Positions 863-22,397 of a stretch of DNA of 34,600 nt are shown here, piece by piece. Both the position numbers and the translations under genes were made by a program. Location: positions 1 to 34,600 of the IMG/VR virus record IMGVR_UViG_3300025460_000011, one strand, 5' to 3'. Within the stretch, counting starts at the first letter, position 1. The number at the start of each line of letters is the position of its first letter. The notes under the pieces were generated by a model. The model did no database searches. It was not told where the DNA came from and saw nothing but the letters and a program-made list of their open reading frames with translations. This DNA comes from a virus.

Positions 863-2569
863 ATGAGTATCTTCGGTTCCCCAGTATTCACCGCAGCCGG
901 GGCAGCACCTTCATCAAGCAAAACCTCCACTGCTATTATAAATACAACCACGGGCGATTTGATCGTTGCGATAGCTCAAATCAATGGCACAGGTGTAACG
1001 GCGGCGGCTTTTTCGGATGACATTGGCGGCAACAATTACACAGTCCAAACGTTGCAAGGTACTTTTGGTTGGACGACAGTCGTGGCGTATTGCATTAGCA
1101 CTGGCACCAACGCTGCGAATCACGTTACCGTGCTTTGGACTGCTACTGGGACTCCGGGTTTCAACACGCTCGGCGTTTGGGATATCCCAATTTCTGGCGG
1201 CACTCCTGTTTTTGATGTGAATCCTTTTGGTGCGAGCCGCAGCAGTTCTAGCACCCCCACCACAGCATCATTTAACACTGTCGGTACGGATGAAATCGTT
1301 CTGACCATGACGGCAAACGATTTTACAGGCATAACGTATACCGCACAGGACGGCAGTCACACACTGGATGCTTCAAACGCCATCAGCGGGGATATGGGTG
1401 CTCAACACATTCTTTTCTCATCCGCGCAAACGGGTATTACTGAATTCATGAATCAAAGTGGAAGTACAGACTGGGTAATCGCGTCGGTCGGATTTCAAGC
1501 AGTAGTACTTAATCCAATCTCCGCGTCCCTCAGCGGGCATGCAACTATCAGCGCTTTGATTGGAACCTTGAATCCAATTTCTGCATCCATCACCGGGCAT
1601 GCGACAATCAGCGCCCAACCGACAGCGGGAATGGTTTTCACAACGCTGGCGTCTGATACATTTCACCGAGCGCCTGAAAGTCCGCTTGCATCGCCGCCAT
1701 GGCAACTGGACACGGTTGGCGACAACGGCTTACAGATCGTGAGTGATGCCTGCGAACCTCAAGTGATATTGCCGACGAACGGGAGCGGGGAATTTTATAC
1801 CGGCATCACATGGCCGACCGATTGTTGGGCTGAAATCACCATCGTTAACTTCGCTGACCCAAGTTCAGATTTTGACCTGCTTGTTCGGGACACGGCGTTA
1901 GACCGAAGCACGCCGACAGGCTATGATCTTGCCGTCAACTTAAATGGCAACGGTCCAGCCCCATGTACTGGCATCGTGGCGTTCTATAACGACACCGAAG
2001 AGGGAGAAATTTGGACGAGTTCCCTAACTGTCACCAACGGGGACATTTTCAAAGTAGCGGTTGTCGGATCAGGTTGGTATGTGTGGCAGAACGGCGTCCT
2101 GTTGCAGTCAGGCATTGATAGTTCGGTCACCACCCGTGGACTTACGGGATTGATATTGGAAGCCGACCCCACTATATCAAACTCAACAGTGAAGAACTTC
2201 AGTGGTGGTGCGGTCGGGGATTCAATTTCAGGAAACGTCGGAACGGCAGGTGTGACGGTATCCTACACTGGCACGTCCTCAGGTAGTGTGACCTCGGCGG
2301 CGGATGGCGGGTACACAATCAGCGGGCTTGCGGATGGCACGTATACGGTTACGCCGACGCTCTTACGCTACACGTTCTCGCCAACCGATGCAACTGAAAC
2401 ACTAGGCGGCGGGAATCCGAACGCCGTCACAAGCGTGAATTTCACTTCAACCTTCATTGTGAGTGGTGGAAATCCATCCGTCCTCGGGACGATTTGGTTC
2501 GGGGGACGAGAGATTTCAGGTTCCACCAACATTATGGGAACCGGTCAAAGGACAGGCACAAGCCGATAA
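863..2569 (+). CDS. Large surface/fibre protein with Ig-like C-terminal domain
   Basis: 568-residue protein; ATG at 863 follows AAGGTG. Residues ~1-215 form a Thr/Gly/Ala-rich beta region. Next come two copies of a 20-residue repeat built on NPISAS-x-x-GHATISA. Residues ~255-450 look like a jelly-roll or concanavalin-type domain (DTFHRA near its start, WYVWQNGVLL towards its end). Residues ~455-540 (GNVGTAGVTVSYTG ... DGGYTISGLADGTYTVTP) match the pattern of carboxypeptidase-regulatory/SdrD-B-like Ig folds common in phage fibres and adhesins. There is no signal peptide, as expected for a virion protein assembled inside the cell. The likely role is host or surface carbohydrate binding, or capsid decoration; this is inferred from fold type and position. 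Confidence 0.65.
   Translation: MSIFGSPVFTAAGAAPSSSKTSTAIINTTTGDLIVAIAQINGTGVTAAAFSDDIGGNNYTVQTLQGTFGWTTVVAYCISTGTNAANHVTVLWTATGTPGFNTLGVWDIPISGGTPVFDVNPFGASRSSSSTPTTASFNTVGTDEIVLTMTANDFTGITYTAQDGSHTLDASNAISGDMGAQHILFSSAQTGITEFMNQSGSTDWVIASVGFQAVVLNPISASLSGHATISALIGTLNPISASITGHATISAQPTAGMVFTTLASDTFHRAPESPLASPPWQLDTVGDNGLQIVSDACEPQVILPTNGSGEFYTGITWPTDCWAEITIVNFADPSSDFDLLVRDTALDRSTPTGYDLAVNLNGNGPAPCTGIVAFYNDTEEGEIWTSSLTVTNGDIFKVAVVGSGWYVWQNGVLLQSGIDSSVTTRGLTGLILEADPTISNSTVKNFSGGAVGDSISGNVGTAGVTVSYTGTSSGSVTSAADGGYTISGLADGTYTVTPTLLRYTFSPTDATETLGGGNPNAVTSVNFTSTFIVSGGNPSVLGTIWFGGREISGSTNIMGTGQRTGTSR
1511..1615 (+). repeat. Tandem 60-bp coding repeat (two units)
   Basis: Two ~45-base units, 1511-1555 and 1571-1615, are near copies separated by 15 bases, so the period is 60 bp (20 residues). 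Each encodes NPISAS-x-x-GHATISA. The copies differ mainly at silent positions, which suggests an old duplication kept for protein function, probably a flexible or extended spacer between two beta domains of the fibre-like protein. Confidence 0.8.
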
Positions 2570-2585
2570 GGTAGGAGCAGCTACC

Positions 2586-4508
2586 ATGATAGACATCTAC
2601 GTAGACCCCATCGCACTTGCACAATACCGAGCAGATTTTGACGCTAACATTCTGCCCCCCGAGCGTCGGAAATGGTACGATAGCGCCCCGGAAGAGAAAC
2701 TGGATAAGTGGTTCCGAGGACGATTCAAATGCATGAAGAGCCATCTCTACCTGAGTGATTGGGTTGAGCACCCGGAGACAGGTAAACTTGTGCCGATATC
2801 TGCGGACTGGGATTTCCAGTCAAACCCCCACAGCATTCTATTTAGCCGCTTTGTTCAGAAGCGTCCCGGGGAGGGTTTTGTTCTCTCCGACTTGGAATCC
2901 CTCACCAAGAAGATGATGATTCTGTGGCCTCGCGGTACTTTCAAGTCTTCCGCTGTTGTTGTTGATATCGTTCAGACCATCTTGAACTATCCGAACGTTC
3001 GCATATGCTTCCTCACCGGCGGCGAAGAACTCGGTATGCGGCGGTTGAAACAAATAAAGCGGATATTTGAAAATCCCACCGAGACCTTTGCGTATCTCTT
3101 TCCTGAGTTCTGTTTTGTGGGGCGATTGGATCAAAAGTCAAACAACTGGGGAGACGTGAATGCCAAGATGGGCAATCAGCACGAGTTTACAGTGCCCTGC
3201 CGCACGAATGAAACTTTTCCCGAGCCTACGTTTTCTATCAGCACGGCGAAGTGCGTCAAAGCCGGGGCTCACTTTGACATCATCTACATTGATGACCTCG
3301 TGAACGAGACGAACTACAAAAGCATTCCGGCTCTGGAGAAATGCTATCAAGATTACATAGATATCTGCCCGATGCTTGAACCCACAGGCTACATCGTGAT
3401 GACTGGAACTCGGTATTCGTGGGGGGATACCTACGAGCGTATTCAAGAGAACGCCCGAGAAGAGGAGAAACAGTTAGGACACACTGTATGGGCATTCTCT
3501 ATTCAAGATTGCTGGAGTTATGCGTGCGCGAACTGCAATCATCCACAGGTCTATCACGACACGGCGACGAATATTCTTCATCCGCTGTGCATGGGTCTTG
3601 CGTGCAAATGCCCCGGGTTTGTTGCGACCGGGGATCGAGGTCTTCTGTTTCCTGAGACCCGAGCGCATGACGGTCGGGCAATTGGTCATACTTTGGGCGG
3701 GTTGGAAAGTTTCAAGATTCAATACGGTGAGGAGTTCTTTGCGAATCAGTACGAGAATCGCCCTATCGCCGCTCAGACGCAGGTATTCACGGATGCACTC
3801 ATCGGAGCCCAAACGCTGTTTGACATAAACGCGATCCCGGGGTATAGCCAGTCATACACATTCGTCGTCGGCGACTTGGCGTACGTTGGACAGGAAGACC
3901 GGGACTTTTCTGTGATATTCGTGTGTCGGTTATTTCAGGGGCAGATTTTCATCTACGACTGTCTCTTTGGAAACTGGGACTCCGGGGAGGTAGCGAAGAT
4001 CACGGTTGATGTTTTACTCACACACAGACCCCGAGATGTGTTCTATGAGCAGTTCAATGGCTGGGACGCATACCAAAGGCTTATTGAATCCGAAGCGAAA
4101 AAGCGCCACATTGAGAACTTGCCTGTCCAGTGGTTGAAGTGTTCACGTACGGCGGACGCTAAAAAAATCCGTATCGGCACCGTCAAAGGCTTTCTGGCGG
4201 GAGCAAATCCCAACGAGCACGGGCGGCTGTGGTTTTACAGGAATATGGGCGGCAAGGACTACGCAGCGGCGTACGATAACCTTGTCAAACAGCTAGTGCG
4301 CTGGCCGAAGTTGGGGCGTCATGACGATTTTGCAGACTGCGCGGGGCAAGTAGTTCAGGCTCCGACTGGATTTCAGTTACAGGAGCCTCCACCTGTTCCG
4401 ACCGTGATGAATTGGCTTCGCAAACTGAACGCCGCCCAGACTGTAGAAGAGCCCGATAGCCGCCCGGCAGGCAGTTACGGGAGCGACGAGGACGACAGGT
4501 GGAAATAA
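2586..4508 (+). CDS. terL: Terminase large subunit
   Basis: 640 residues. It is the packaging motor that drives DNA into the prohead and cuts the concatemer. I chose the ATG at 2586 because AGGAG lies at 2573-2577; upstream in-frame codons overlap the previous gene. The ATPase has a Walker A-like PRGTFKSS (residues ~115-122, starting just after W114) and a Walker B HFDIIYIDDL. The RNase H-like nuclease half shows VGDLAYVGQEDRDFSV (first acidic residue), DVFYEQFNGW and a late acidic RHDDFADCAG. A zinc-like cluster, CANCNH ... CMGLACKCPG, lies between ATPase and nuclease. Length and motif order are usual for TerL. No small subunit was recognised upstream. Portal follows at once, the classic order. 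Confidence 0.95.
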   Translation: MIDIYVDPIALAQYRADFDANILPPERRKWYDSAPEEKLDKWFRGRFKCMKSHLYLSDWVEHPETGKLVPISADWDFQSNPHSILFSRFVQKRPGEGFVLSDLESLTKKMMILWPRGTFKSSAVVVDIVQTILNYPNVRICFLTGGEELGMRRLKQIKRIFENPTETFAYLFPEFCFVGRLDQKSNNWGDVNAKMGNQHEFTVPCRTNETFPEPTFSISTAKCVKAGAHFDIIYIDDLVNETNYKSIPALEKCYQDYIDICPMLEPTGYIVMTGTRYSWGDTYERIQENAREEEKQLGHTVWAFSIQDCWSYACANCNHPQVYHDTATNILHPLCMGLACKCPGFVATGDRGLLFPETRAHDGRAIGHTLGGLESFKIQYGEEFFANQYENRPIAAQTQVFTDALIGAQTLFDINAIPGYSQSYTFVVGDLAYVGQEDRDFSVIFVCRLFQGQIFIYDCLFGNWDSGEVAKITVDVLLTHRPRDVFYEQFNGWDAYQRLIESEAKKRHIENLPVQWLKCSRTADAKKIRIGTVKGFLAGANPNEHGRLWFYRNMGGKDYAAAYDNLVKQLVRWPKLGRHDDFADCAGQVVQAPTGFQLQEPPPVPTVMNWLRKLNAAQTVEEPDSRPAGSYGSDEDDRWK

Positions 4509-4591: not shown

Positions 4592-6835
4592 ATGTCAGAA
4601 AACGACATCAAAGCGGTCACTCACTTCGCCGACCTCGGTCAGATTAAAATTCTGGACCTTCCCGGTGCTATTCCGTATGGTGAAACTGCCCTCCCAATAA
4701 TGCCTACGGAGGTTGCTTTCATTGACCAACGTCGTTCTGATGTGTCAATGTTGAAGGAAGCAAACCTCAACCGTGAAGAATCCGAGAGTTTTATTGCCAC
4801 GAGAGGCTTAATTGGGCGCTGGAACATGGCAGAAATCATGCTTCAGGCGTGGGTTAGCCCGATGAAGTGGAAAGGAAGCGAACAATTTCGGTCTCACCTC
4901 GGAATTCCGCTCGTCGCTGAGCAATTTTACAGCATTCACAGCGTTGTGAATCAGACTTTGTTCGGCGGATATCAAGTTTTCAAGGTTGATGCGACTTCCG
5001 GCACGCCGATGCCGTGCGCCGAGGCTCAACAAGCCCTCCTAAACGCCGAATTGAAGACGTGCGGCTTCAAAGGTGTGTCCGCTAAGACCGAAATGCGTGA
5101 AATCACGTACGACGGGCTGTTCTACGGTCTCGGTGTTGCTCACTACGGCTGGAAAACTACCAAACAGAACATCATTAAGAAGGTTCAACGGTTCCATGAC
5201 AAGTCCATGGTGGTGAACGGCGCTCTTGTAGTTGTTCCGCAGCCCACGGACGAGGATGATATTGAGGAAAAGACAATCGGGACGTGCGAAATTAACATGC
5301 CGATACTGGAACACGTGCCTGTTCGGCGTGCTCGGTACGCTCCTGACCTTCGCCGGGGTGACCCACGTGTTGCGGACTGGTTTGGACGCATCATTTACCT
5401 GACTGGATACCAACTTGATGAACTTCGTAACACCCAAGGTTGGAATATTCCGAGTCGGGAGCAACTTGTGGCGCTGACGACACCGCAAATGCAGGACCAG
5501 TCACCGACAAACCCATTAGAAACGCTCGGGTCAAACACCGGAAACCCAGTTTTTCAGCAAACGACTACGCCGCAGAAGGCGTATCCCGAAAATTACACCG
5601 AGCGTACCGCTCACGACCCGTTGGCGAGGAAATTTGAATGCTTTGATTATTGGACAGGCTCGCGTCACGCGGTTATTTTGCAAAAAGAGTACGTTCTGCT
5701 CAACGAAACGCATAAATTCGGTCGTCCGCCATTTTTGGGCTTCTGTTTCCGCAATGCACCCGACTCCCTGCACGGATACGGCGTTGCATACTGGTTGACC
5801 GACTTTCAACGGGTCTGTCAAGGCGTTGTGAACGCTTATTTGGACGACATGAACTTGAATTTGATGGGAACATACACTTCTCCCGCCGGTGCGAACAATA
5901 CGGCGCAGGCGCAGTGGATTTTCCCGGGCAAAATCTTCAAATCCGACCGGGAGGGCAAGATTGAACCGATGACTCGCAACGCCGTTGATGCAAACGAGCC
6001 TTTGGCGGTTATCGCGCAGATGAAAGCGTGGGCAGCTTCTATTTCTGGTGCAGGACCGGGTATGCTCGGGTCAAATCCGGGCAAATCGGGTGACATGCGG
6101 ACACCCGGCGGCGTTGAAGCAATCACCGGCGGCGAGAACATCAAGCTGCAAGACCTCGTGGACGTAGTTTCGGAGCAAGTCTTCGTTCCGTTCTTGGAGT
6201 TCTGCATTGAGAACAACCAAAAATTGAAGCCGTCACAAATCCGAGCGATGCTTTCACAGGAATTGGGTGAGGCATTCAAGCAAACTCCGTTGGATATTCT
6301 CAACGGCACGTACCGAGTTGAAATCTCGGCGGGCACCCGACTTATTGCCCGCGAAGCCGTGAATAAGACCATGGGTATTTTGGAAACGTTCCTTTCTGCC
6401 CCCGGAACCAAGGACATGCTGGCTGTGCAGGCTTTGAAGTTGGACGTGAACGGCATGTTCACTGCGATGTTTGATGCGTTTGGCGCACCGTACAAGGAAC
6501 ACATTGTGGTGCCGATGGATGAAGAAGACAAGAAGCGAGCGATGGCTGATACGCAGGCTGCGTTATCACAGGGTAAAGTGGCGATGATGCAGGCTCAAGG
6601 TGCCGTCAAGAAGGACATTGATAACAACCAAGCCGAGAATCGCATGCTCATTGAAACTGGTAAACATGCTTTGAATGAGCATGGGAAGACCACGGACCAA
6701 GCAAACGATATGGCGTTGCAGAAACAACAGCAGGCTGCGGATAAAGCAATGGCTGCAACACCGGAGGAACAAGGTCTTGATCGTGCAGCGAAGGGAGCCT
6801 TCGCCAACATGGATAAGAGTGCATTTTCTGGATGA
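4592..6835 (+). CDS. Portal protein
   Basis: 747 residues; ATG at 4592 with AAGGA about 12 bases upstream. It would form the dodecameric ring at the unique vertex through which DNA passes and to which the tail attaches. The assignment rests on position directly after terminase, large size as in podovirus-type portals, and sequence character: the N-terminal FIATRGLIGRWNMAEIMLQAW, a central GFCFRNAPDSLHGYGVAYWL with DFQRVCQGVVNAYLDDMNL, and a long helical C-terminus rich in Gln, Lys and Ala (residues ~650-747) typical of the barrel/crown region. It has no membrane segment or signal peptide. A GIY-YIG endonuclease gene follows, interrupting the usual portal-scaffold-capsid order. Confidence 0.85.
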   Translation: MSENDIKAVTHFADLGQIKILDLPGAIPYGETALPIMPTEVAFIDQRRSDVSMLKEANLNREESESFIATRGLIGRWNMAEIMLQAWVSPMKWKGSEQFRSHLGIPLVAEQFYSIHSVVNQTLFGGYQVFKVDATSGTPMPCAEAQQALLNAELKTCGFKGVSAKTEMREITYDGLFYGLGVAHYGWKTTKQNIIKKVQRFHDKSMVVNGALVVVPQPTDEDDIEEKTIGTCEINMPILEHVPVRRARYAPDLRRGDPRVADWFGRIIYLTGYQLDELRNTQGWNIPSREQLVALTTPQMQDQSPTNPLETLGSNTGNPVFQQTTTPQKAYPENYTERTAHDPLARKFECFDYWTGSRHAVILQKEYVLLNETHKFGRPPFLGFCFRNAPDSLHGYGVAYWLTDFQRVCQGVVNAYLDDMNLNLMGTYTSPAGANNTAQAQWIFPGKIFKSDREGKIEPMTRNAVDANEPLAVIAQMKAWAASISGAGPGMLGSNPGKSGDMRTPGGVEAITGGENIKLQDLVDVVSEQVFVPFLEFCIENNQKLKPSQIRAMLSQELGEAFKQTPLDILNGTYRVEISAGTRLIAREAVNKTMGILETFLSAPGTKDMLAVQALKLDVNGMFTAMFDAFGAPYKEHIVVPMDEEDKKRAMADTQAALSQGKVAMMQAQGAVKKDIDNNQAENRMLIETGKHALNEHGKTTDQANDMALQKQQQAADKAMAATPEEQGLDRAAKGAFANMDKSAFSG

Positions 6836-6848
6836 CCCCCGAACTTTT

Positions 6849-6872
6849 TGACTATTCCTGCCATAAGTGAGG
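6849..6872 (+). promoter_or_regulatory. Repeated late-gene leader, copy 1 (divergent)
   Basis: TGACTA, five free bases, then GCCATAAGTGAGG: the same spacing and core as copies at 7951-7980 and 9179-9208. This copy lies between portal and the GIY-YIG gene, and its 3' end merges with the GAGGAGAG ribosome binding site for the ATG at 6881. The spacing between TGACTA and CATAA is too short for a sigma70 promoter. Confidence 0.5.
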
Positions 6873-6880
6873 AGAGTCAA

Positions 6881-9221: not shown

Positions 9222-10217
9222 ATGATTCTGCCCCCGGGCGTTCAAAGCACCACCCTTGCTGCCTTCCCGCAGATTGCGTATGACCGCACTGCGATTTTGG
9301 AATGGCAGTTCAATACTCCATTTCTTGAGGAATTGTGCGACTTCCGGCCTCTGCCTCGCCGGTCTGGTCGGACGCTCCAGTTCTACGGCCAACAGCCGTT
9401 CGCTGCTGCGACCTACGACCTGTCCGAAGGTATCCCGGGTCCCAGCCTCCAGTTGACCCAAGTCTTCAGCGATGCGTTCGCTGATGAATACGGCGACTGG
9501 ATTGGCATTTCAAACGTCGCTCAACAGATGTTCCTTGCGGACATCACGATGGATGCCAGCCGCAACCTTTCGTATCGGGGCGCTCTCACGAGCAACCTGA
9601 TTGCGATTAACGGTTTCGAAGCAGCCGTCGTGGCGCAGTCGTCCGCAGCCATTGACTTGCTCGACAACGAGTTCATGCTGTCCAACACAGTCCGTAAGTG
9701 CGAGTCCCAGTTGATGGGCAACGCGGTTCCGGGTCGTGATGGCGGGCTCTACACGAGCGCGATGCACCCGTACGTTGTTTACGATTTCATGTCGGACAAC
9801 TCTGCCGGGTCCGCCGTTGACGTGCTGAAGCGTTCCGAAGCCGGGGCGTCTGTCCTGAAGTCGGACATGACTCGCGGCTACACGGTGCTGGAGTGGAGCG
9901 GAGTTCGCATTATCCGCACGCAGACGGTGCCGACGTACGCCAATTACCCCTCAACGGGTAAGACTGGATACGCAACGTATGTCGTTGGCCGTGAAGCAAT
10001 GATGGCCTCCGAGTTGCTGGGCAACCGAGTTCCTCGGAACCCCAGCTTCAAGGTGAACGTCAAGACCTTCGGCGACAATGACATTGACCTGAGCAACCCG
10101 ATGTTGCAGACACGAGCAATCGTGAGCTACGACTGGTTCCTCGGCGTGGTTGCGCGCCCGAATACCAATGGTACACCGGGTTTCAGAAGGGTCAGGTGTG
10201 AGGTGTCGGCAGTGTAA
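9222..10217 (+). CDS. Major capsid protein (N4 gp56-like)
   Basis: 331 residues; ATG at 9222 after GAGAGAGG. Features suggesting the N4-gp56/HK97-fold capsid group are the N-terminal AILEWQFNTPFLEELCDFRP, the E-loop-like RRSGRTLQFYGQQPF, repeated segments such as DEYGDWIGISNVAQQMFL, and the C-terminal RAIVSYDWFLGVVARPN. Size, position after scaffold and strong leader fit the most abundant virion protein. The very end (GFRRVRCEVSAV) is unlike the rest, and an HNH endonuclease cassette begins 114 bases later, so the C-terminus may have been altered by that insertion. The family call is from pattern, not search. Confidence 0.8.
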   Translation: MILPPGVQSTTLAAFPQIAYDRTAILEWQFNTPFLEELCDFRPLPRRSGRTLQFYGQQPFAAATYDLSEGIPGPSLQLTQVFSDAFADEYGDWIGISNVAQQMFLADITMDASRNLSYRGALTSNLIAINGFEAAVVAQSSAAIDLLDNEFMLSNTVRKCESQLMGNAVPGRDGGLYTSAMHPYVVYDFMSDNSAGSAVDVLKRSEAGASVLKSDMTRGYTVLEWSGVRIIRTQTVPTYANYPSTGKTGYATYVVGREAMMASELLGNRVPRNPSFKVNVKTFGDNDIDLSNPMLQTRAIVSYDWFLGVVARPNTNGTPGFRRVRCEVSAV

Positions 10218-12661: not shown

Positions 12662-12853
12662 ATGTCGTGTCCCCGCTGCGGCGAAACCTGTGAACGAGAC
12701 CCGGCGAATCGTACGGAGCGATTTGTTTGTAAAAGATGCGGCTGGGCAAGTTGGTCTACCCGCTGCGATAATTTGTGCGAGTGGCTGGCAAGCGAGCAGA
12801 GTGAGAGGTTCGTGAACCCGCAACTGGAATGGAAACGCAATGTTAAATCTTGA
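12662..12853 (+). CDS. Small zinc-ribbon protein
   Basis: 63 residues from the ATG at 12662. A second ATG at 12653 is possible, but it lies upstream of the predicted transcription start. CPRCGETC near the N-terminus and CKRCGWASW ~20 residues later form a four-cysteine zinc ribbon; the rest is a short charged helix. Such proteins bind nucleic acid or partner proteins. With no room for a Shine-Dalgarno on the mRNA, it may be translated from a nearly leaderless message. Its end overlaps the start of the histidine phosphatase gene by 14 bases, so the two are probably co-translated. Confidence 0.7.
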   Translation: MSCPRCGETCERDPANRTERFVCKRCGWASWSTRCDNLCEWLASEQSERFVNPQLEWKRNVKS

Positions 12854-13457
12854 CCCAAGTCGAACACTGATTGGTTATATCGTACGACATGGTGAAATCA
12901 CTCAGCCAAATGTTTGGGATGGATGGGGTGATTTCCAGTTATCCAATACAGGTCGAGAGTCCGCCGAGAAAGCCGCGCAATGGTTGTCCTTTGAGAAAAT
13001 CGGACGAGTTGTTTCCTCTGATATCCCTCGTGCCGCAGAAACCGCACAGTGCATCATGGATACATGCAACGTGGCGTGCCCTTTCGTCACATATGACCCG
13101 AACTTGCGCCCGAGGATGGTCGCTGATTACACAGGCAAAGAAAAGACGCCCGAGCGAGTTGAGGAGTTCAAAAAGTACATTGAGAATCCCGATCTCGTGA
13201 TTCCCGGCGGCGAGAGCGGCACGCAGTTAAATTTGCGAGTGCAAGTCATCTATCAGTATCTCGCAACACCGTACGCTGCACTTCCGACTGTGATGACGAT
13301 GCACAATTCCGTGATTAAGGCGCTGCTTGGAATCGACGAGGTGGGTGAAATTGTTGATCCGGGTGGTATCGTTGCTGCCTATATGGACGAGAAGGGTAAC
13401 ATCGAGTTTGAAGTAGCAATGGGAGCAGCCGCGCCAACATCTTCGGAGGTAAGCTAA
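12840..13457 (+). CDS. Histidine phosphatase (phosphoglycerate mutase-like)
   Basis: 205 residues; ATG at 12840 inside the end of the previous gene. Histidine phosphatase superfamily signs are IVRHGE with the phospho-accepting H17, SDIPRAAETA, the acidic E125 in GGESGTQ, and a second histidine H155 in TMHNSVIKALL. Length is usual for the superfamily, whose members dephosphorylate sugars, nucleotides or proteins; the substrate cannot be told here. There is no signal peptide, so it acts in the cytoplasm. Its neighbours are a zinc-ribbon protein and a linker-rich protein ahead of the giant gene, an unusual setting in a phage. Confidence 0.85.
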   Translation: MLNLDPSRTLIGYIVRHGEITQPNVWDGWGDFQLSNTGRESAEKAAQWLSFEKIGRVVSSDIPRAAETAQCIMDTCNVACPFVTYDPNLRPRMVADYTGKEKTPERVEEFKKYIENPDLVIPGGESGTQLNLRVQVIYQYLATPYAALPTVMTMHNSVIKALLGIDEVGEIVDPGGIVAAYMDEKGNIEFEVAMGAAAPTSSEVS

Positions 13458-13458
13458 T

Positions 13459-14016
13459 ATGGAACCCTATCAAGACCCCGCAGAGTCTATTCTTCGGGGG
13501 GAACCAACCATTAACGATGAGCAGCGAGCGAACCTTTTTGATATATTTCACTCAACAAAGGACGAGGGTGAACTGGCTCGGCGGCTCCAGCCATTGGCAG
13601 TGCCGGACGACTTTAAGAAGCAGCTGTATGATGCTAAACAAGGTGGGGCAATTACCAAAGGCGAGCCTCTTGACAAGGTGACCGAGGCTATCAATCGCAT
13701 GAAAACCATTGACCCGCAGGTTTTGGCGATGGCAGAAGCCCATCCGAACGTGCTCAAAGCCCTGACTGGGGCTGCTGGGGCTGCGGAGCCCACAGGCGAG
13801 GGCAAAGCTGGGGCGAAGGGTAAGGGGCAGGGCAAGGGTGCGAAGGCTACGCCGTCAATCCAGCCGCCTCGGATAGACGGTTTAGAGAACTATCCGCCGA
13901 TTCCTGAAGGACATCATCGTGTCCGGGCGTCAGATGGTGGCATTCATGATATCCCGGCTGAGAACATTGACCAAGCCCGAGAGATTGACCCACGGCTTCA
14001 GATTATGAATCCGTAA
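13459..14016 (+). CDS. Unknown protein with Gly/Ala/Lys linker
   Basis: 185 residues; ATG at 13459 after a strong GGAGG. Residues 1-105 are helical and acidic; residues ~108-135 are a flexible linker of Gly, Ala and Lys (GEGKAGAKGKGQGKG). The C-terminal ~45 residues read GHHRVRASDGGIHDIPAENI, a short beta motif also seen at the ends of phage virion or ejected proteins. It immediately precedes the polyvalent protein, 12 bases away, and may be packaged with it. No enzyme motif was found. Confidence 0.75.
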   Translation: MEPYQDPAESILRGEPTINDEQRANLFDIFHSTKDEGELARRLQPLAVPDDFKKQLYDAKQGGAITKGEPLDKVTEAINRMKTIDPQVLAMAEAHPNVLKALTGAAGAAEPTGEGKAGAKGKGQGKGAKATPSIQPPRIDGLENYPPIPEGHHRVRASDGGIHDIPAENIDQAREIDPRLQIMNP

Positions 14017-14028
14017 TCGGAGACCGCT

Positions 14029-17000
14029 GTGGCAACTGATACCGCAACGCCGACAATCAGTGCACCGCCTGCTCCTCCAGAAGACCAACTGGGTGCTGGC
14101 GGGACTCCCTCTATTCAGACTGCTCCTCCGGCAACTATTCCCGACGAAAATACTTCAACTTTAATTTGGCATCACATCATCAACAAGTCTCAGAAGTCGC
14201 CCGCAGCAGAGAAAGAATACAATGACCACGCTGCTGCTACGGAAAAAGAGAACGCCGACAAAGAGGCTCTCTACCGAGATAACCCAGCGGAATTCAAAAA
14301 GCAGAACCCATACGAGTACATCTATCGCAAGACATACGACTATGTCAAGGATAGCGTGGAAGCGGAACCGAAGCGAGCGCTCGCTCCGGGGATGGCTAAA
14401 CAGCCGGTTTCGTTAGGCAAACTCGGCACGACTACTCCAGAGAAAGCGATTGATGACCTCACCACGAATGGATTACAAGACCTCTCGCTTGGTGCGCTTT
14501 CTCAGCCGGGCGGAAAACCCACCATGATGGCTCAACCGATACCGCTCATGGGTCGGCTTGGAGAAGTTGAACCCGCCGAGACAGGAGGTGGGTTGGGTCC
14601 TGTGAAGCCGGTTGAGGGTCCAGAAACTGGTTTTGAGATGAGCCGTGAGCACGTACGAACGCTCAAAGACCTCGGCTATTCAAACCAAGCGATCACTCAT
14701 TTCAACGCTGGTGAAGTTCAAGATATCATAGCGAATAAAACTCCAGCCCCACCTGAAGCGGCTCCGGCGGCTGAAACAAAACCTACCGCCGCTGCTGAAA
14801 AGAAACCCGCAGGTAAAGAAGCTGTTGCCGCACCTGAAGGCGCTGAAATTTCGCCTCACGTCACTTTCAAAACTGTAGGCGGCAAAGAAGTAGAGGCTCC
14901 GCAGGGCATTGAACGCCGGGACTATACGACTCGTCCCTTTCCGAGTGGTCAATTAACTCGTGTTGGGCGAATGGCGGACACGACGTTCAATATCATTCGT
15001 CAACATGAAGCCGAGGCACAGGGCGGTACTGTTCAACAGCCGACGATTAAAACCGAAGGTCCTGACTGGGAGCATTTACAGAGTGCATACGTCGGCGGAA
15101 AGAAAATCGGCTCGCTCGGATACAAAACCGATGTGGAGGGAAACGCGCGGATTTATGGGGCACAAGTCACGCCAGAGATGCAGAGAAAAGGTATCGCGAC
15201 GAAGATGTATCTATCTGCATTTGATAAAGCTCGGGCGGATGGCGTGCTGAGTATTTCCAGTGACCCGACGCACGTCTCTCCGGCGGCAACGGGAGTTTGG
15301 AGAAACCTGCAAGCCAGCGGGCTACCGATTGAGAACATCACACACCCGAATGGAACGCCCGGGTTCCGATTGAACCTCCAGCCGCCAGAAACACCAGCTA
15401 CCAAAAACTTGCCGGATTGGCTCAAGAAAGACCCGCTTACTACGAACGAAACGCATGCGACTTCCGTGCCGTTGATTCCCAGTCCCGAGGGGACGGCAGT
15501 CGGGCGAGTTGATAAGCCTGACGTTCCTGTGGCGGCTCTTTCGGATTCAATGGCGAAGGTGGGCGGCAAAATGGTTGCACCGCCGACTCCCCCGAAACCA
15601 ACGGTTAATCCCGAGACGGCTCCTATTGCTGCGGTTCCTATGCCGAAACTAGAGCGGACTCAAATTCAAGGCGGGGCATCAACGCAGCCATATCCGACCT
15701 ATCATGAAGCTAGCAACGACCAGACAAATCCATGGGTGCGACGTTCTGTGGACCCGGCAAACAGCGCATCGCCGACCAACGAGAATCGCTTGCTCATGGT
15801 GCAGTTCGCATCCGATTTAATTAATGGCGGGCTCAAGACTGAAACAAAAGACGAAGCCTCGCAGTATTATGACAAACTCTATTCTGGGTTTCGTCCGGGC
15901 TATGCACGCATGCAAGACTTTTGGGAGATTCCACAGTGGCACGGGTTTGTTGCTCGGAACTTTCCCGACGCGGATGTGTATGTCGTCCGTGACATGGAGC
16001 AGGCGAAGAAATTTCTGAACGATGCGAAATATGGTAGGGTCACATTCTCTGCGCTGGATGTCAACAAGCACCTAATTCGGGACCTCGCATCAAACTACTC
16101 AGGGCATGTAGATGTTGGCGGGTATGTGGCTCCTGAGACGTTTTCGGATTTGCCGAATGTGAAATGGCACGACTCCATGGAGTCGCTCACGAAGGATGCA
16201 GGTGTAGAATATAAGGGCGGTGCCGACTATCGTCACTATGCTGGGTCAGACGTGATTCCCCGTCTCACGATGTCAAAGGGCTGCCTGCACAAATGTGCGT
16301 TCTGCACAGTTGAGAAGCAACTGGTCATGCCGCCGAAAGAAGACATTGAACAGCAGGCGGACGCTATCGCTCAGTTGGGTTCAAAACTGGTGTACCTGAA
16401 CGATAAGACATTCGGGCAAGCGAAAAACTATCAGGACTTGGCGGAACTCAATACCCGAATGAAAGAAAAGAACCCGAATTTCCAAGGGTTCGTGGTGCAG
16501 ACGACCGCAGCGCAAATGGGGAAAATCCCTGCCGATTGGTTGGCGAAATCCGGCATCAAATACGTGGAGCTAGGCATTGAGAGCTATAATGACCCCATCC
16601 TGAAGTCAATGCACAAGCCCGCTACGGAGAACATCATTAACAAAGCCGTGGATAAGTTGCGCCAGAACAACATTACCTTGATTCCGAACATCTTGATTGG
16701 CTATCCGGGGGAGACGGCAGAAACGTACGCAAACACGCTCAAGTTCTTGCAGGACAACAGAGACATCATCTCTCATGCCAACATCTACAACCTCGCTCTC
16801 TATGAGAATACAGAACTCGGGAAGTCCATGACGACCGCTTCCCCGGATGACTTCAATGAGAATGTGCTGGAGAAGTCGTTCCACAAGGACCCCGCCCTGC
16901 ACCAGCAATTCGCCGGAGACCTGTACGGTGCGGCATCAAAACTGCTTGAAGCCACGCCTACGCCACTGAGACAGCCGACGCCCGAGCCGCAGTTTCATCA

Positions 17001-20000
17001 GGCGCTTGCTCGTCGGGGCGAAATGCCGGGTCAAACTGTGAATCTGAGTCCCGCCTACGGTGAGACCGGCGGGTATATTGGCGGGCACATCAAAATGCGA
17101 CTCGGGGGCGCGACCGAAGAGGAAGACAATCAGCGATACGCCGAGGCTTTAGGTGTCACGCATGGACCTTCATGGGATGACGTGTTTCCCGCAGAATTGC
17201 TCCCCGAAGGAAACTCTCCGGTAAGTGTAGTTGGACACGAAGATGGACACATCGTTGAAGGCGAACGTGTGGGTTGGCCTATGAAGAATGTTGTCGTGAA
17301 CAGCGCCTATCACCCGACAACGAGCGGAGGAGCGGCGGCGTCAACAGATTTTGGTCCTGTTTTCCGAGAACTTCCCGGGGTCACGGAAATTGAACCCGGG
17401 CGGTTTAAGTTTTCGGCTCAAGCCCTGAAAGAGAATTGGCCGAAAGCTGTGCGGGTATATTTGGGGGGGGTGGTTTCCCAAGAAGTGAATTATGGGATTC
17501 CGATTAAGGTCACAGAGGGCGGTGCTGGGGCGGGGGATGCTCAAAACATCGTTCGCTGGGGGAAAGCTATGGGGTTGACCGATGATGAAATCGGTGACCA
17601 TATGATTAAAACGCTTGCCGAGCTAAGAAAAGACTGGCAAGACCCGGCAATCAATGCTATAGTGAAGAAGATGGCCGCAGAGCGGGAGGACGGTATCCCG
17701 AGAACCGTTCTGCAAACTCAAGAACGAGTTGACGATTTATTGAACCAAGTACGAGCAGTGTGGGAGGGACAAAAACATGGCATCACTGAAGGAACTCATG
17801 CAGCAGATGGTGGAGTCGTTCCAGCAACTGAGCCCGGCGCAGCAGGAGGAGGTAAGAAAGTCGCTGCGGAGCCAGTTCAAGGCAGACTCTTCGCCCAAAA
17901 AGGCGGAGACACCTCAGGACTCTTCGCCAAAGCAATAAAACATTACGGCACGACCGAGGACATTCGCAAGGCAGGATATATCGGGCTTGATGGGACGATG
18001 CTGGATTTCTCGGAAGGTCAGGAGGCTCGCACTCTTGACCACGGCGATATTGCATCAATCCCCGGCGTGCAGTCCGCTCACAACTCAAATCCACGTTTTG
18101 ATTTTGTAATGAAAACAGGTGCTATGCGTGTGATTGATGTTCCGCAGTCTAAATGGCTCGGGGTGATGGTTTCTGCCGAACATCCTCCTACGCATGCCCA
18201 ATTGGATAGGCTGACGCCCCTTCTAGAAGGTGGTAGAGATGTTGAGGTTGACTTAATTCACCCCGATTGGGCTCTACCGGGGGGCGCAAGCGCCAAAGAT
18301 GTTCACGACATGGATGGACTACAGCGTGTTGTTCGGGACGCTCAAAAAATGCATGCTGAAGCACAAAGGAGAATAGCAAATGGAAAAGGAACCGAAAACG
18401 CGGACAACGGAACAGTTGGGGGAGGATTTGCTGTACACAGTCAAGCAGATGTCGCCCGAGGAGAAAGCGAAGTTTCGGGAGCGGCTGGACAAAAGTCTCC
18501 AGAAGTGGCTGCCGAAGTATCAAAAACCCCAGAAGTAAAAACTGCCGAAATCCAGAAACCACCCGAGCCGTGGCACGATCAAGCTGCCAATACTATGGCG
18601 AAGGCGGGTGGTTTTACGATTCATCCGACAACGGGCAAGACGCCTACAGAGGGCTATGTCGTGGAAATTGGTCCCGAGCAGCGCAAGCCTGAGGCCGGGG
18701 CAGAGTGGCCGAAGCCCGCTGGCGAGCCTGCCGGGACATTTCATCCGAGCCCCCAAGATATGCAGGAATTTCACGGCGAGAATAAGGCGCTGTTTGACAA
18801 GCATCCTGAATTGCACATCGGCGGGTATGAGGGGGCGTTGGAAGTCAGTGGTGTGACCCGAGATAAGCAAGCGGCGATAGACTTAGCTCACAAGCTAGAC
18901 CAGAAGTCAATCTACGATATCAAAAACAAAAAGGAAATTGAAATCGGCGGAACTGGCAAGACCCGGCAGTTCCCAGACTACCCGATGGAGCAACGTATCA
19001 AGGATTTGGGCGGCGAGACTGGGGGCGTAATTTCAGGTGCCATGGAAGCCAAGAAGGGCGCGACGACGCCTATCGAATCGCCCACGGTTAGCACCCGCGT
19101 GCCGTCGCGCACCGTGAAAGGTGAGACTGTCGAAGACCACACGAACCAGTCGCTCATTTCAGACATGGAAGCCGCGAAGGCTGCACCCGGGTACATCGAC
19201 AAGATGGTGAATCGTGTTAAAGGTGTCCCCGGATTCGTGATGCCCGAAAGCGCGGATGCGCAGACTGCCGCCGATGCATACATTCGGCACGTCGCGGACA
19301 ACATCAAATTCATGTACCGCAAATTGACGCCTGCGGAGATTGCGTACAACGAGCAATGGTACCCAGTCGGCGCTCACGAGCGCGGGCTGGAGGTCGCAAA
19401 GACGCACGACATCACTCCGAACCAAGCGTGGGCAGTGACCTCAGTCGAGTCTCCGATGACGGACTGGAACCAGAACACGGCGCTTGCCGAGCGGACGGTG
19501 GATATTTGGAAGAACCAACAGAACACAAAGTTCACACCTGAGATGCAGAAAGCAGCGGACGAGATTCTCAGTGTCCCCGGGATGGGGAAGTTTGCGCCGC
19601 TCTTCAAATCGTTGCGAGGGAAAACGCTCGCAGGGCTGACGAGCATGCCAGAGAAACAAGCGTGGTGGTTGCGACTGTACGACGAAGGTCACAATCCTCG
19701 GTCATATCAAACGTGGGGACCTGACGGCAAGCCGCTCGGGCTCGCCAAGAACGTGGACGGGTCTGAAGCCAGCGTAGGCTGGAGTTTTCAGAATCACATT
19801 CAGAAAGCGATTTCGATTCTGCGAGACGGCTCTCCCGAGAATATCAGCAAGCAACTCGGCTACGGGCACAAGGTTCGCAACTTCTACAACAACCAAGCCG
19901 CACCGGACGACCCGCGATTCTTGACGATTGATACGCACGCGGTCGCGGCAGGGCAGTTGCGCCCGCTGGCGGGCAAGCACCCCGACGTTGGGTCGAACTT

Positions 20001-20508
20001 TGGAACCATCAGCAACGGTCCCCATGGACTCAGCGGCACATATCCGCTGCACGACGCCGCGTATCGACTCGCAGCGAAAGAACTTGACATTCCCATACCG
20101 AGTAGGCTACAATCACCAGTATGGGCGAAGATACGCGAGGTCTTCACGGACGACTTCAAGACCAAGGAAAATATCAACGCGGTAGATGCAATCTGGAGAC
20201 AACACAATGACGGAAAAATCACAGCCGACGAAGCCCGAAACCAAATCTGGGACTACGCAGCCCGATGGCACGATGAAGTTGCTAGAGGAGTACGGAATCC
20301 CGCTGACCAGAGAGAACTATTTACTGCTGGCGTTCGGGGGGAACCCGCCGAAGGAGCCGCTGGACGGGGAGATCGAGGCGGAACTCCCGTGGTCGATCAG
20401 ACACCTGAGACCCCTGAAGTAAGCATCTTCGCCAAGCCTGCTCCAAAAGCCAAGGGTAATATCTCGCTGGAATTCCTCAAGGGCGGTCTCAAGAAACTCG
20501 GCAAATAA
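14029..20508 (+). CDS. Giant polyvalent protein: GNAT, radical SAM, M41-like
   Basis: 2159 residues; GTG at 14029 after CGGAGA. Segments in order: ~340-455 GNAT-like (Q385-RK-G388-I-A390-T); ~584-735 Rossmann/B12-binding-like, without a visible DxHxxG; ~740-970 radical SAM with C752, C756 and C759 (CLHKCAFC), then ELGIESYNDPILKSMHKP and IGYPGET; ~1040-1245 FtsH/M41-like peptidase with H1070-E-x-x-H1074, LGGVVSQE and GAGAGD1170; ~1298-1450 a polyvalent-protein domain (HYGTTEDIRKAGYIGLDG); ~1525-1655 a second (GGFTIHPTTGKTPTEGY); ~1710-2075 a DUF7178-like domain (KVRNFYNN, IDTHAVAAGQ). Linkers are Pro/Ala/Glu-rich. Proteins of this class are thought to be ejected with phage DNA to act in the new host. 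Domain calls are by motif. Confidence 0.85.
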   Translation: MATDTATPTISAPPAPPEDQLGAGGTPSIQTAPPATIPDENTSTLIWHHIINKSQKSPAAEKEYNDHAAATEKENADKEALYRDNPAEFKKQNPYEYIYRKTYDYVKDSVEAEPKRALAPGMAKQPVSLGKLGTTTPEKAIDDLTTNGLQDLSLGALSQPGGKPTMMAQPIPLMGRLGEVEPAETGGGLGPVKPVEGPETGFEMSREHVRTLKDLGYSNQAITHFNAGEVQDIIANKTPAPPEAAPAAETKPTAAAEKKPAGKEAVAAPEGAEISPHVTFKTVGGKEVEAPQGIERRDYTTRPFPSGQLTRVGRMADTTFNIIRQHEAEAQGGTVQQPTIKTEGPDWEHLQSAYVGGKKIGSLGYKTDVEGNARIYGAQVTPEMQRKGIATKMYLSAFDKARADGVLSISSDPTHVSPAATGVWRNLQASGLPIENITHPNGTPGFRLNLQPPETPATKNLPDWLKKDPLTTNETHATSVPLIPSPEGTAVGRVDKPDVPVAALSDSMAKVGGKMVAPPTPPKPTVNPETAPIAAVPMPKLERTQIQGGASTQPYPTYHEASNDQTNPWVRRSVDPANSASPTNENRLLMVQFASDLINGGLKTETKDEASQYYDKLYSGFRPGYARMQDFWEIPQWHGFVARNFPDADVYVVRDMEQAKKFLNDAKYGRVTFSALDVNKHLIRDLASNYSGHVDVGGYVAPETFSDLPNVKWHDSMESLTKDAGVEYKGGADYRHYAGSDVIPRLTMSKGCLHKCAFCTVEKQLVMPPKEDIEQQADAIAQLGSKLVYLNDKTFGQAKNYQDLAELNTRMKEKNPNFQGFVVQTTAAQMGKIPADWLAKSGIKYVELGIESYNDPILKSMHKPATENIINKAVDKLRQNNITLIPNILIGYPGETAETYANTLKFLQDNRDIISHANIYNLALYENTELGKSMTTASPDDFNENVLEKSFHKDPALHQQFAGDLYGAASKLLEATPTPLRQPTPEPQFHQALARRGEMPGQTVNLSPAYGETGGYIGGHIKMRLGGATEEEDNQRYAEALGVTHGPSWDDVFPAELLPEGNSPVSVVGHEDGHIVEGERVGWPMKNVVVNSAYHPTTSGGAAASTDFGPVFRELPGVTEIEPGRFKFSAQALKENWPKAVRVYLGGVVSQEVNYGIPIKVTEGGAGAGDAQNIVRWGKAMGLTDDEIGDHMIKTLAELRKDWQDPAINAIVKKMAAEREDGIPRTVLQTQERVDDLLNQVRAVWEGQKHGITEGTHAADGGVVPATEPGAAGGGKKVAAEPVQGRLFAQKGGDTSGLFAKAIKHYGTTEDIRKAGYIGLDGTMLDFSEGQEARTLDHGDIASIPGVQSAHNSNPRFDFVMKTGAMRVIDVPQSKWLGVMVSAEHPPTHAQLDRLTPLLEGGRDVEVDLIHPDWALPGGASAKDVHDMDGLQRVVRDAQKMHAEAQRRIANGKGTENADNGTVGGGFAVHSQADVARGESEVSGAAGQKSPEVAAEVSKTPEVKTAEIQKPPEPWHDQAANTMAKAGGFTIHPTTGKTPTEGYVVEIGPEQRKPEAGAEWPKPAGEPAGTFHPSPQDMQEFHGENKALFDKHPELHIGGYEGALEVSGVTRDKQAAIDLAHKLDQKSIYDIKNKKEIEIGGTGKTRQFPDYPMEQRIKDLGGETGGVISGAMEAKKGATTPIESPTVSTRVPSRTVKGETVEDHTNQSLISDMEAAKAAPGYIDKMVNRVKGVPGFVMPESADAQTAADAYIRHVADNIKFMYRKLTPAEIAYNEQWYPVGAHERGLEVAKTHDITPNQAWAVTSVESPMTDWNQNTALAERTVDIWKNQQNTKFTPEMQKAADEILSVPGMGKFAPLFKSLRGKTLAGLTSMPEKQAWWLRLYDEGHNPRSYQTWGPDGKPLGLAKNVDGSEASVGWSFQNHIQKAISILRDGSPENISKQLGYGHKVRNFYNNQAAPDDPRFLTIDTHAVAAGQLRPLAGKHPDVGSNFGTISNGPHGLSGTYPLHDAAYRLAAKELDIPIPSRLQSPVWAKIREVFTDDFKTKENINAVDAIWRQHNDGKITADEARNQIWDYAARWHDEVARGVRNPADQRELFTAGVRGEPAEGAAGRGDRGGTPVVDQTPETPEVSIFAKPAPKAKGNISLEFLKGGLKKLGK
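17777..17938 (+). CDS. Small embedded gene in the giant ORF, +1 frame
   Basis: 53 residues, starting MASLKELMQQMVESFQQL and ending SSPKQ, in the +1 frame relative to the host gene. GGAGG (17763-17767) lies 9 bases before the ATG. The protein is a convincing amphipathic helix (QQLSPAQQEEVRKSL) with a charged tail. The host frame here is a low-complexity linker just after the M41-like domain, which is consistent with overprinting. It shares Q-[LM]-SP-x6-R-x-x-L with the embedded gene at 18380, suggesting paralogy. Function unknown. Confidence 0.55.
   Translation: MASLKELMQQMVESFQQLSPAQQEEVRKSLRSQFKADSSPKKAETPQDSSPKQ
18380..18538 (+). CDS. Second small embedded gene, +1 frame
   Basis: 52 residues (MEKEPKTRTTEQLGEDLLY, then TVKQMSPEEKAKFRERLDKS, ending YQKPQK), again in the +1 frame. 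AAGGAG (18366-18371) is 8 bases before the ATG, an ideal spacing. The host frame is a Gly/Ala/Glu-rich linker between two polyvalent domains. The helix with QMSPEEKAKFRERL parallels that at 17777. Two related small proteins in two linkers of the same giant gene make chance less likely than either alone. Confidence 0.55.
   Translation: MEKEPKTRTTEQLGEDLLYTVKQMSPEEKAKFRERLDKSLQKWLPKYQKPQK
20207..20422 (+). CDS. Third embedded gene: conserved-type small phage protein
   Basis: 71 residues in the +1 frame near the 3' end of the giant gene; GGAG (20194-20197) precedes the ATG by 9 bases. After a polar N-terminus it reads LLEEYGIPLTRENYLLLAFG, then GNPPKEPLDGEIEAELP. That pattern (GIPLTRENYL ... 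GNPP) I associate with many small unnamed phage proteins, so this is probably a genuine gene rather than a shadow. It overlaps the host frame for its whole length. Function unknown. Confidence 0.65.
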   Translation: MTEKSQPTKPETKSGTTQPDGTMKLLEEYGIPLTRENYLLLAFGGNPPKEPLDGEIEAELPWSIRHLRPLK

Positions 20509-20553: not shown

Positions 20554-21558
20554 TTACTTGGTGATGGTGTCGTTTGTGACCACACACTTGCACGGTGGTT
20601 TGCGATACGGCATCTTCCGGGCGGCGGCTGCCACGCTAGGCGCGGGCGGGACAACCGGCGCAGGAATCACCGTCACTGGAATATTCACCGTGACATCAGG
20701 CACTGAGAGTTGCAATTGCGGTTCGGGGACTGGTGCAGGAGTAGGAACCACGACGGGAACCGCCTGAGGTAGACAGTCATCCATCGTGACGCCCGCTGCC
20801 TTCACGTACTTGTTTGTGAGATACACCTTGCATCGGGCGGTGACGCTCGGCGCTAGGCGTGCGGCTTCAAGAATGGCGCAATTCTCGTCAATCTTGCCGC
20901 CGCCGAATGAAAACCCAAATGCCGTTCCCGAACCGCCGCCGCTATAGCCTTTGAAGCACGGCGTTGTCGGAAGTACGGTCGGAGCCATCGCAGGCGGTGC
21001 TTGTCTCGGGATATTCTCGGTATAGGTTGCATTGTTAGACCCATTTGCTGACGCCGAGGAGTTGCCCGAGTTGTTCACTGACTGCGTCTGCGTTTGCTTT
21101 TGGTTTCCGCCGTTGGCGGTAGCGGAACCTCCTGTACCTCCCATTGCAGTGTTGCTTGAGGTGACAGTAGAATTCCCCGCATTGGAAACCGTAGCATAAC
21201 CGTTACCACCTGTTGCGTTCCCTCCTGTGGCGGTAGACTGAGAGGATGCCCGCCCACCAGTCGCCGAAGAGTTCGCACTAGATTGCGAAGCCGCTTGGCT
21301 GGTACTGGACGACTGCGAGTTTGCATTTGAATTTCCTCCTGTGGTCGGGGGAGCGGGTGGAGTTACAGGAACGACTTCGCACTCGTACACCTGACCGTTG
21401 TAGTTTGCAAGCTGTCCGTCACCATCACCAAAAGTTCCGGTGGTGGTTGAAGGCACGAGAACCCGCTCGGCGAGGGGGTCACTGCAATTCCACGCCTTCG
21501 CAGGCACTGCACTGCACAGCAGAAACAAAAACACGAAGAACCACGGCTTCTTGGTCAT
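20554..21558 (-). CDS. Secreted Ser/Asn/Gly-rich low-complexity protein
   Basis: 334 residues. AGGAG lies about 8 bases before the ATG at 21558. Residues 1-22 are a signal peptide (MTKKPWFFVFLFLLCSAVPAKA). A short Cys-containing domain follows (WNCSDPLAERVL ... YECEVVPV), then ~110 residues of Ser, Asn, Gly and Thr repeats. Next comes a Cys-bearing domain (CFKGYSGGGSGTAFGFSFGG, DENCAILEAARLAPS). It ends with Pro/Val-rich sequence and CKC. The C-terminal pattern, FGFS-x-GG followed by D-x-NC-x-x-LE, recalls a family of phage secreted or virion-tip proteins with long Asn/Thr tracts. It could be displayed on the cell surface or be part of a lysis or superinfection-exclusion set; this is not proven. 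Confidence 0.8.
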   Translation of the reverse strand: MTKKPWFFVFLFLLCSAVPAKAWNCSDPLAERVLVPSTTTGTFGDGDGQLANYNGQVYECEVVPVTPPAPPTTGGNSNANSQSSSTSQAASQSSANSSATGGRASSQSTATGGNATGGNGYATVSNAGNSTVTSSNTAMGGTGGSATANGGNQKQTQTQSVNNSGNSSASANGSNNATYTENIPRQAPPAMAPTVLPTTPCFKGYSGGGSGTAFGFSFGGGKIDENCAILEAARLAPSVTARCKVYLTNKYVKAAGVTMDDCLPQAVPVVVPTPAPVPEPQLQLSVPDVTVNIPVTVIPAPVVPPAPSVAAAARKMPYRKPPCKCVVTNDTITK

Positions 21559-21591
21559 TCACACTTCTCCTCGTCGGGGTTGCCGACACTT

Positions 21592-21780
21592 CTATGCTCG
21601 CTGCGTACGTTGTGCGAGCAATCTGATTTGCCGGTCCAGCATAATCCACTGGATTCGCTCGGTGAGCGTCGGCTGACTGACGTAGGCGGGAGCGGGCGGC
21701 ACAGATAGGGCTGGCTGCTCGGTTTCGCCTAACTCTTCGGCTACTTCTGGACTAAAACAACTGGAGTAGTTTCGCTGCAT
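21592..21780 (-). CDS. Small unknown protein
   Basis: 62 residues from the ATG at 21780, chosen because AGGAGG lies five bases upstream; the frame is open to 21990, but that part reads as non-protein. The sequence starts MQRNYSSCFSPEVAEELGET, has a Pro/Ala hinge, and ends in a basic amphipathic helix (LTERIQWIMLDRQIRLLAQR). It overlaps the end of the upstream small gene by 40 bases, so the two are probably translated together. Function unknown. Confidence 0.65.
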   Translation of the reverse strand: MQRNYSSCFSPEVAEELGETEQPALSVPPAPAYVSQPTLTERIQWIMLDRQIRLLAQRTQRA

Positions 21781-21968
21781 GGTGCCTCCTGTCGCGGTTG
21801 CGCTGCCTGAGAAAGGGAATCGGCGTGAAACTGAGCCTGACGGTCCACAAGTTCGGAGTCCGTCATATTCGCAAGGACACGACGAAATGTCGGGTTGCTG
21901 TGGCGTCCAAGCAGACGGGCTCGGATGGTGCCTGCCATGATTCGGACTTTCATTTCTTTTCCGCTCAT
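21741..21968 (-). CDS. Small basic protein, first of minus cluster
   Basis: 75 residues; ATG at 21968 with AGGAGG about 8 bases upstream. The N-terminal half is basic (MSGKEMKVRIMAGTIRARLL, then RHSNPTFRRVL), followed by ANMTDSELVDRQAQFHADSL and a polar tail. It may bind nucleic acid or a protein partner; no family was recognised. It is the first gene behind the operator-like promoter at 22018-22032 and is followed by the 62-residue gene and the secreted protein. Confidence 0.65.
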   Translation of the reverse strand: MSGKEMKVRIMAGTIRARLLGRHSNPTFRRVLANMTDSELVDRQAQFHADSLSQAAQPRQEAPCSETTPVVLVQK

Positions 21969-22079: not shown

Positions 22080-22397
22080 ATGACGCCCATGACGCCAGAT
22101 CAATTCTTGATGTGTGTTGAGTTGATTTTGCTTGGGGTGATTGTGTGGCAGGGGGAATTGATTCGGCGGTACGAGAAGTGGACCTACGAAATGAACCGGG
22201 AACGCTGGGATGAGAGGGCAAAATGGCGCGAAGCAAAAAGGCAACAACAGTTGAAGAAAGACAGCACAATACCGACCTCCGAATCCAACGCAAATTCGGC
22301 ATCACCCTCGCCGACCGAGAGCAGCGAGCCAAAGACCAAGAAGGCCAGTGCAAAATCTGCGGGGGTCCCCTTGACGCCTACGGACCTCCCAACGTAG
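22080..22397 (+). CDS. Small membrane-anchored protein
   Basis: 105 residues from the ATG at 22080, which coincides with the predicted transcription start; a second ATG is at 22089. One membrane segment, residues ~10-28 (FLMCVELILLGVIVWQGEL), is followed by a strongly charged helix (RRYEKWTYEMNRERWDERAK) and a Ser/Thr/Pro/Lys-rich tail. Topology suggests a single-pass protein with a coiled-coil; a lysis-related (spanin-like) role is possible but unproven. The last 175 bases overlap the HNH gene in another frame, and the low-complexity tail lies exactly in that overlap. Confidence 0.6.
   Translation: MTPMTPDQFLMCVELILLGVIVWQGELIRRYEKWTYEMNRERWDERAKWREAKRQQQLKKDSTIPTSESNANSASPSPTESSEPKTKKASAKSAGVPLTPTDLPT

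Follow-up and report, generated by a model that had tools for sequence, protein, structure and literature searches.

A giant phage protein joining a radical SAM module of an apparently phage-restricted family to DUF7178, a likely DNA glycosylase-like domain

Why would a phage carry a radical SAM enzyme inside a giant protein encoded close to its capsid genes? The question is raised by a 34.6-kb IMG/VR virus record, taken in full and probably fragmentary, which is here called the window. An initial annotation, made from the sequence alone, had proposed that one chain of 2159 residues fuses a radical SAM core to a Rossmann-like region, an acetyltransferase-like fold, an HExxH peptidase, two ordinary polyvalent domains and a DUF7178-like domain. 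If ejected into the host with the DNA, the protein was thought able to modify host or phage macromolecules by radical chemistry at the start of infection. The open reading frame has the proposed coordinates and length (Table 1), and the interpretation as a whole was partly supported.

Table 1 Positions of the giant ORF, its segments and neighbouring genes in the window.
Feature	Position	Strand	Basis or remark
Giant polyvalent-type protein, 2159 aa	14029..20508	+	GTG start; identical full-length ORF in L002-L005
GNAT acetyltransferase domain, residues 348-409	15070..15255	+	Pfam PF00583, 23.5 vs cutoff 20.7 bits
Segment without counterpart in the homologous L201 giant, residues 457-983	15397..16977	+	L201 residues 401/405 flank the gap
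Phage radical SAM module, residues 583-978, Rossmann domain then radical SAM core	15775..16962	+	Pfam, model, Foldseek
CX3CX2C cluster motif, C752/C756/C759	16282..16305	+	Kept in 66/66 distinct modules
HExxH metallopeptidase-like domain, HEDGH at 1070-1074, FtsH/M41-like at best	17026..17778	+	
Uncharacterised conserved segment, residues 1290-1440	17896..18348	+	82% identity to L008; no Pfam match
Uncharacterised segment, residues 1515-1681	18571..19071	+	Homologous to parts of giants lacking the radical SAM module
DUF7178 domain (HhH-GPD glycosylase/lyase-like), residues 1687-2074	19087..20250	+	Invariant K1948, D1968
Histidine phosphatase (His_Phos_1), solo in the window	12840..13457	+	Fused into giant protein in L006
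185-aa protein immediately upstream of the giant ORF	13459..14016	+	Weak tape-measure-like PHROG match
Major head protein	9222..10217	+	PHROG 1357
Portal / head-tail adaptor	4592..6835	+	PHROG 332 and 1216
Terminase large subunit	2463..4508	+	PHROG 38

The cysteines of the cluster motif and the GIES (residues 849-852) and GYPGET (891-896) motifs were all found where they had been reported. The Pfam Radical_SAM profile matched residues 748-907 above its cutoff (E 8e-14), and the DUF7178 profile matched residues 1745-1844 (E 4e-17; 63.3 bits against a gathering cutoff of 27). The acetyltransferase-like fold was identified as GNAT, again above the Pfam cutoff. Other parts of the proposal held less well. 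The HExxH motif is present, but its assignment to the M41 peptidases was weak, with FtsH only the third match for the region (E 0.11). The two supposed polyvalent domains had no Pfam match, but homologous stretches occur within other giant phage proteins. The terminase, portal and major head genes lie upstream, which puts the giant ORF in a late-gene position. Scans for promoters, terminators and Rfam families gave nothing specific.

As all data are metagenomic, the fusion could be an assembly artefact, or the module a decayed and functionless remnant. However, the intact ORF was found unchanged in four other contigs from other metagenomes. The five separately assembled contigs agree at the DNA level to at least 99.7% (99.7-100% identity), and assembly error was rejected on this basis. 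A more distant version of the giant protein (L008) has 69% identity to that of the window. Between these two, the module (92% identity) and DUF7178 (90%) were the most conserved parts, with the other segments at 33-82%, among them GNAT plus its leader (41%) and the HExxH region (62%). For the module, dN was 0.054 and dS 1.53, and the resulting dN/dS of ~0.035 points to strong purifying selection. With conservation over 66 sequences as well, artefact or decay is very improbable.

The AlphaFold model of the module (pLDDT 85, pTM 0.84) predicted a Rossmann domain followed by a radical SAM barrel. The proposed Rossmann-like region in front of the core was thus backed by both the model and Foldseek. 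The best Foldseek matches in the PDB were AprD4 (E 4e-13), MiaB, MtaB, MgmA, CysS, TsrM, OxsB and TokK. The CX3CX2C motif, the partial TIM barrel of the model and the profile score above cutoff place the module in the radical SAM superfamily, and it is probably a SAM-cleaving [4Fe-4S] enzyme. Many NCBIfam radical SAM family models matched the core. The best included PhpK (1e-21), RiPP-maturation methyltransferases and MgmA, and as every score was far below its cutoff, the module family is a branch of its own. Two candidate memberships were rejected. For PhpK-type P-methyltransferases, TIGR04479 scored 76.8 bits against a cutoff of 600, over the core only. For MiaB/RimO methylthiotransferases, TIGR00089 scored 56 bits against 251, and the module is without the three N-terminal cysteines of their second cluster. 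In 63 aligned modules the only conserved cysteines were those of CX3CX2C, so one cluster is expected.

With AprD4 and the cobalamin-type enzymes (TsrM, OxsB, CysS, MgmA, PhpK) the module shares the order of Rossmann domain and barrel, the single cluster, and the GxE and GYPGE motifs. It differs from them by its low identity (12-17%), by its apparent restriction to phages, and by motifs of its own (WEIPxW, GGY, DKTFGQ, QTT). A relation to B12-binding families had also been suggested. A Rossmann-type domain was indeed predicted, with AprD4 as best match, but Pfam gave no B12-binding match, and cobalamin binding by this modelled domain is unproven. Gp36 of Streptomyces phage SF3 is likewise a phage-encoded radical SAM protein of the B12-binding type. 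In contrast to the fused module, gp36 is a solo protein in a nucleotide-metabolism neighbourhood; it has 22.5% identity to the module and fell outside the family by the searches used.

Successive IMG/VR searches yielded 66 distinct module sequences, many from related phages, including the L008 homologue and dozens of differently built giants. Besides CX3CX2C, the motifs WEIPxW, FSxxDxN, GGY, DKTFGQ, QTT, GxE and PGE were near-invariant. Of the 66 modules, 44 formed part of ORFs 713-4989 aa long. The other 22 came from shorter ORFs: contig ends truncate two of these, and ~20 were genuine solo genes of 370-560 aa. In the module tree, the fused modules formed nearly one group, with four solo ones among them. 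Two genome scans with short patterns, covering 84,980 prokaryote species genomes and liable to miss distant kin, found no cellular relatives, and annotated phages gave only distant, general radical SAM matches. The family appears to be restricted to phages, with no cellular member in the searches made.

The module is a mobile, exchangeable unit of ~395 aa. It is cleanly absent from the giant protein of L201, a close relative, where the GNAT part stops at residue 401 and the HExxH segment begins at 405. In the protein of the window, residues 457-983, with the module among them, lie between these two segments. Giant proteins that combine DUF7178 and HExxH but have no module also occur in other relatives (L198-L200). 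Fusion partners varied among the giants: ART-PolyVal, NUDIX, histidine phosphatase, GNAT, DUF7178, a DnaJ zinc-finger region and DUF3293. The histidine phosphatase is encoded two genes upstream of the giant ORF in the window. In the giant ORF of L083 (4673-16363), the module itself is split just past the PNIMVGL stretch by a ~140-aa insertion (residues ~2078-2218) that looks like an ADP-ribosyltransferase-type domain. In L033, a second, unrelated radical-SAM-like ORF (11618-12148, beginning MRNNCRVVLTDRCNLDCSFCC) directly follows a solo module.

These features agree with the proposed polyvalent class. Phage polyvalent proteins were surveyed by Iyer et al. 2017 (PMC5512222), and the giant protein of the window shares with them a multidomain chain, unrelated enzymatic domains and a location beside virion genes. 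Disparate domains (GNAT, radical SAM, the HExxH motif and DUF7178) are joined here in a single chain of 2159 aa, the late or virion gene vicinity is similar in relatives, and domains are shuffled among homologues. Other module records often had genes for virion structure, internal virion proteins and the tail nearby. ART-PolyVal, GNAT, NUDIX and metallopeptidase-like domains are partners common to the surveyed proteins and the module giants. The words "radical" and "glycosylase" do not occur in the main text of that survey; the giant protein of the window has a radical SAM and a glycosylase-like domain. The class itself is established; what appears new relative to that text is the enzymatic module, together with the family it belongs to and its association with DUF7178.

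Virion delivery is suggested by the polyvalent class, the size and the gene position (PMC5512222), and with modules in giant ORFs beside capsid genes, a redox enzyme may enter the host together with phage DNA. A [4Fe-4S] enzyme in a virion would need its cluster assembled after entry, which counts against such delivery. A protein made late could instead act within the infected cell or on capsids under assembly, for instance by modifying DNA before packaging. Solo modules encoded as separate genes fit this. Giant size, varying partners and late-gene location are, however, marks of ejected polyvalent proteins (PMC5512222), and we hold a protein that is not ejected to be improbable.

What the module acts on may be indicated by DUF7178 (PF23802). 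A profile built from 16 diverse members was compared with the PDB, and it matched an archaeal N-glycosylase/DNA lyase (3fhf, E 5e-4); the resemblance is modest, as a chance match to a haemagglutinin was only about tenfold weaker. K1948 and D1968 were invariant in the 16 members, and both align with 3fhf, in keeping with the catalytic Lys/Asp arrangement of HhH-GPD enzymes. In 3knt the Asp aligns too, and a Gln stands at the position of the invariant Lys, which we take to be the catalytic-Lys mutant of that structure. DUF7178 shares with archaeal OGG2 and AGOG the spacing of Lys and Asp (~20 residues, as in 3fhf) and an HhH-like GxKVxxFxxNL motif. It differs from them by very low identity and by large insertions in the window version, and the structural match was not significant: Foldseek of this insertion-rich model gave Pa-AGOG at rank 4 (E 0.26). 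Mycobacteriophage homologues of DUF7178 are annotated as DNA glycosylases. From these resemblances, DUF7178 is likely, though not proven, to be an OGG2-type HhH-GPD DNA glycosylase/lyase. The isolate Roseobacter phage CRP-738 has DUF7178 in a gene of 835 aa that lies between those for the portal and the coat protein.

DUF7178 was fused to the module, adjoined it or was found in the same record in 27 of 67 records (17/23 plus 10/44). Most module records were without it, though many are fragments. Among control records, chosen by RecA, it was present in 5 of 48 (Fisher p 6e-4); this p value serves only as a guide, given the phylogenetic non-independence of the loci and the many fragmentary records. 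Four of the five positive controls were giants of the window's relatives that lack the radical SAM module, so DUF7178 also exists without it. Around solo modules, DUF7178 was the commonest neighbour (8 of 21 loci). By Pfam, 7 of 96 neighbouring ORFs were DUF7178 and 2 were D12 adenine DNA methylase. The module gene adjoins the DUF7178 gene in L093 and L089 and lies ~400 bp from it in L036. A reciprocal search from solo DUF7178 recovered the module in 4 of 12 records, three of them already in the set; in the fourth (the L041 contig), the module is fused and DUF7178 solo. The D12-class methylase gene lies directly upstream of a solo module in two large phage records, L096 (1241-2059) and L098 (9168-10001), on contigs of 107 kb and 291 kb. 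A small family of ~100 aa (FAM2) recurs beside solo modules in five loci (L030, L031, L092, L093, L102) and was not found in giant ORFs.

The link to a glycosylase-like domain favours nucleobases over host or phage macromolecules in general, and together with the DNA methylases in two loci it points to a nucleobase substrate. Our preferred reading, to which we give somewhat less than an even chance, is an ejected polyvalent protein whose radical SAM module modifies or repairs a nucleobase in DNA with DUF7178 as partner. The giant protein would most likely be packaged in the virion, ejected with the DNA and folded once in the host cell. The module would then take up a [4Fe-4S] cluster from the host machinery and make a 5'-deoxyadenosyl radical. 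It could thereby modify or repair the base, which DUF7178, bound to DNA, would flip out or excise. The likely benefit would be that incoming DNA is shielded from restriction or that damage is repaired. The fuller claim of a hitherto undescribed, phage-only radical SAM family that, with DUF7178, forms a nucleobase-editing system, delivered pre-made in virions and altering or repairing incoming DNA in the first minutes, is doubtful, and we put it forward only tentatively. Thymine hypermodification, with its amino-acid:DNA transferase, is a possible parallel for the pairing of HhH and radical SAM; literature searches did not confirm it, and we do not use it as evidence.

Against a DNA substrate it counts that sugars, tRNA, proteins and small molecules are also among the substrates of the nearest solved folds. 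The module could modify a host protein or peptide by C-methylation, epimerisation or crosslinking, similar to MgmA or RiPP maturases, with DUF7178 as an unrelated co-passenger in the polyvalent array. The NCBIfam core matches listed above and the high rank of MgmA among the structures suit this reading, as do ART and GNAT, protein-modifying domains frequent in polyvalent proteins (PMC5512222). A mere co-passenger, however, would not be expected to be repeatedly the neighbour of solo modules outside any giant, and a protein substrate seems unlikely to us. Slightly less likely still is that the module resembles MiaB, MtaB or other tRNA radical SAM enzymes in its action and, early in infection, modifies RNA, for example tRNA of the host or the phage, to sustain translation or resist anticodon nucleases. 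MiaB and MtaB were among the best Foldseek matches, RimO-type structures were the best PDB sequence matches, and MiaB/RimO models were among the NCBIfam matches. Yet the 63 aligned modules share no further cysteines that could hold a methylthiotransferase's second cluster, and instead of an RNA-acting neighbour, DUF7178 and DNA methylases recurred.

If the pair does act on DNA, as in the preferred reading, it would represent a new way of modifying or repairing DNA when a phage enters its host. The range of activities apparently brought in with phage DNA is extended by radical chemistry, and the radical SAM family concerned is widespread among phages, with no cellular member found in the searches made. 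The repeated link to the module gives the unnamed DUF7178 family a testable function and a partner.

Some further features of the window were observed. The best NCBIfam match of the histidine phosphatase was the alpha-ribazole phosphatase CobC, far below cutoff; a cobalamin link is tempting but unproven. A reverse-strand ORF of 334 aa (20554-21951), for which no family match was found, has no counterpart in the phage of L003, which shows a gap of ~1.35 kb here but is otherwise 99.9% identical. Genes of the GIY-YIG homing endonuclease type and endonuclease VII-like type are present at 6848-7498 and 22223-22711. A RecA/UvsX-like recombinase (25475-27286, + strand) is split by an intein-splicing domain (Pfam Intein_splicing, ~residues 134-338). 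The nearest isolate by terminase was Tunturiibacter phage Tunturi_3 (23% identity), a resemblance that weakly hints at an Acidobacteriota host.
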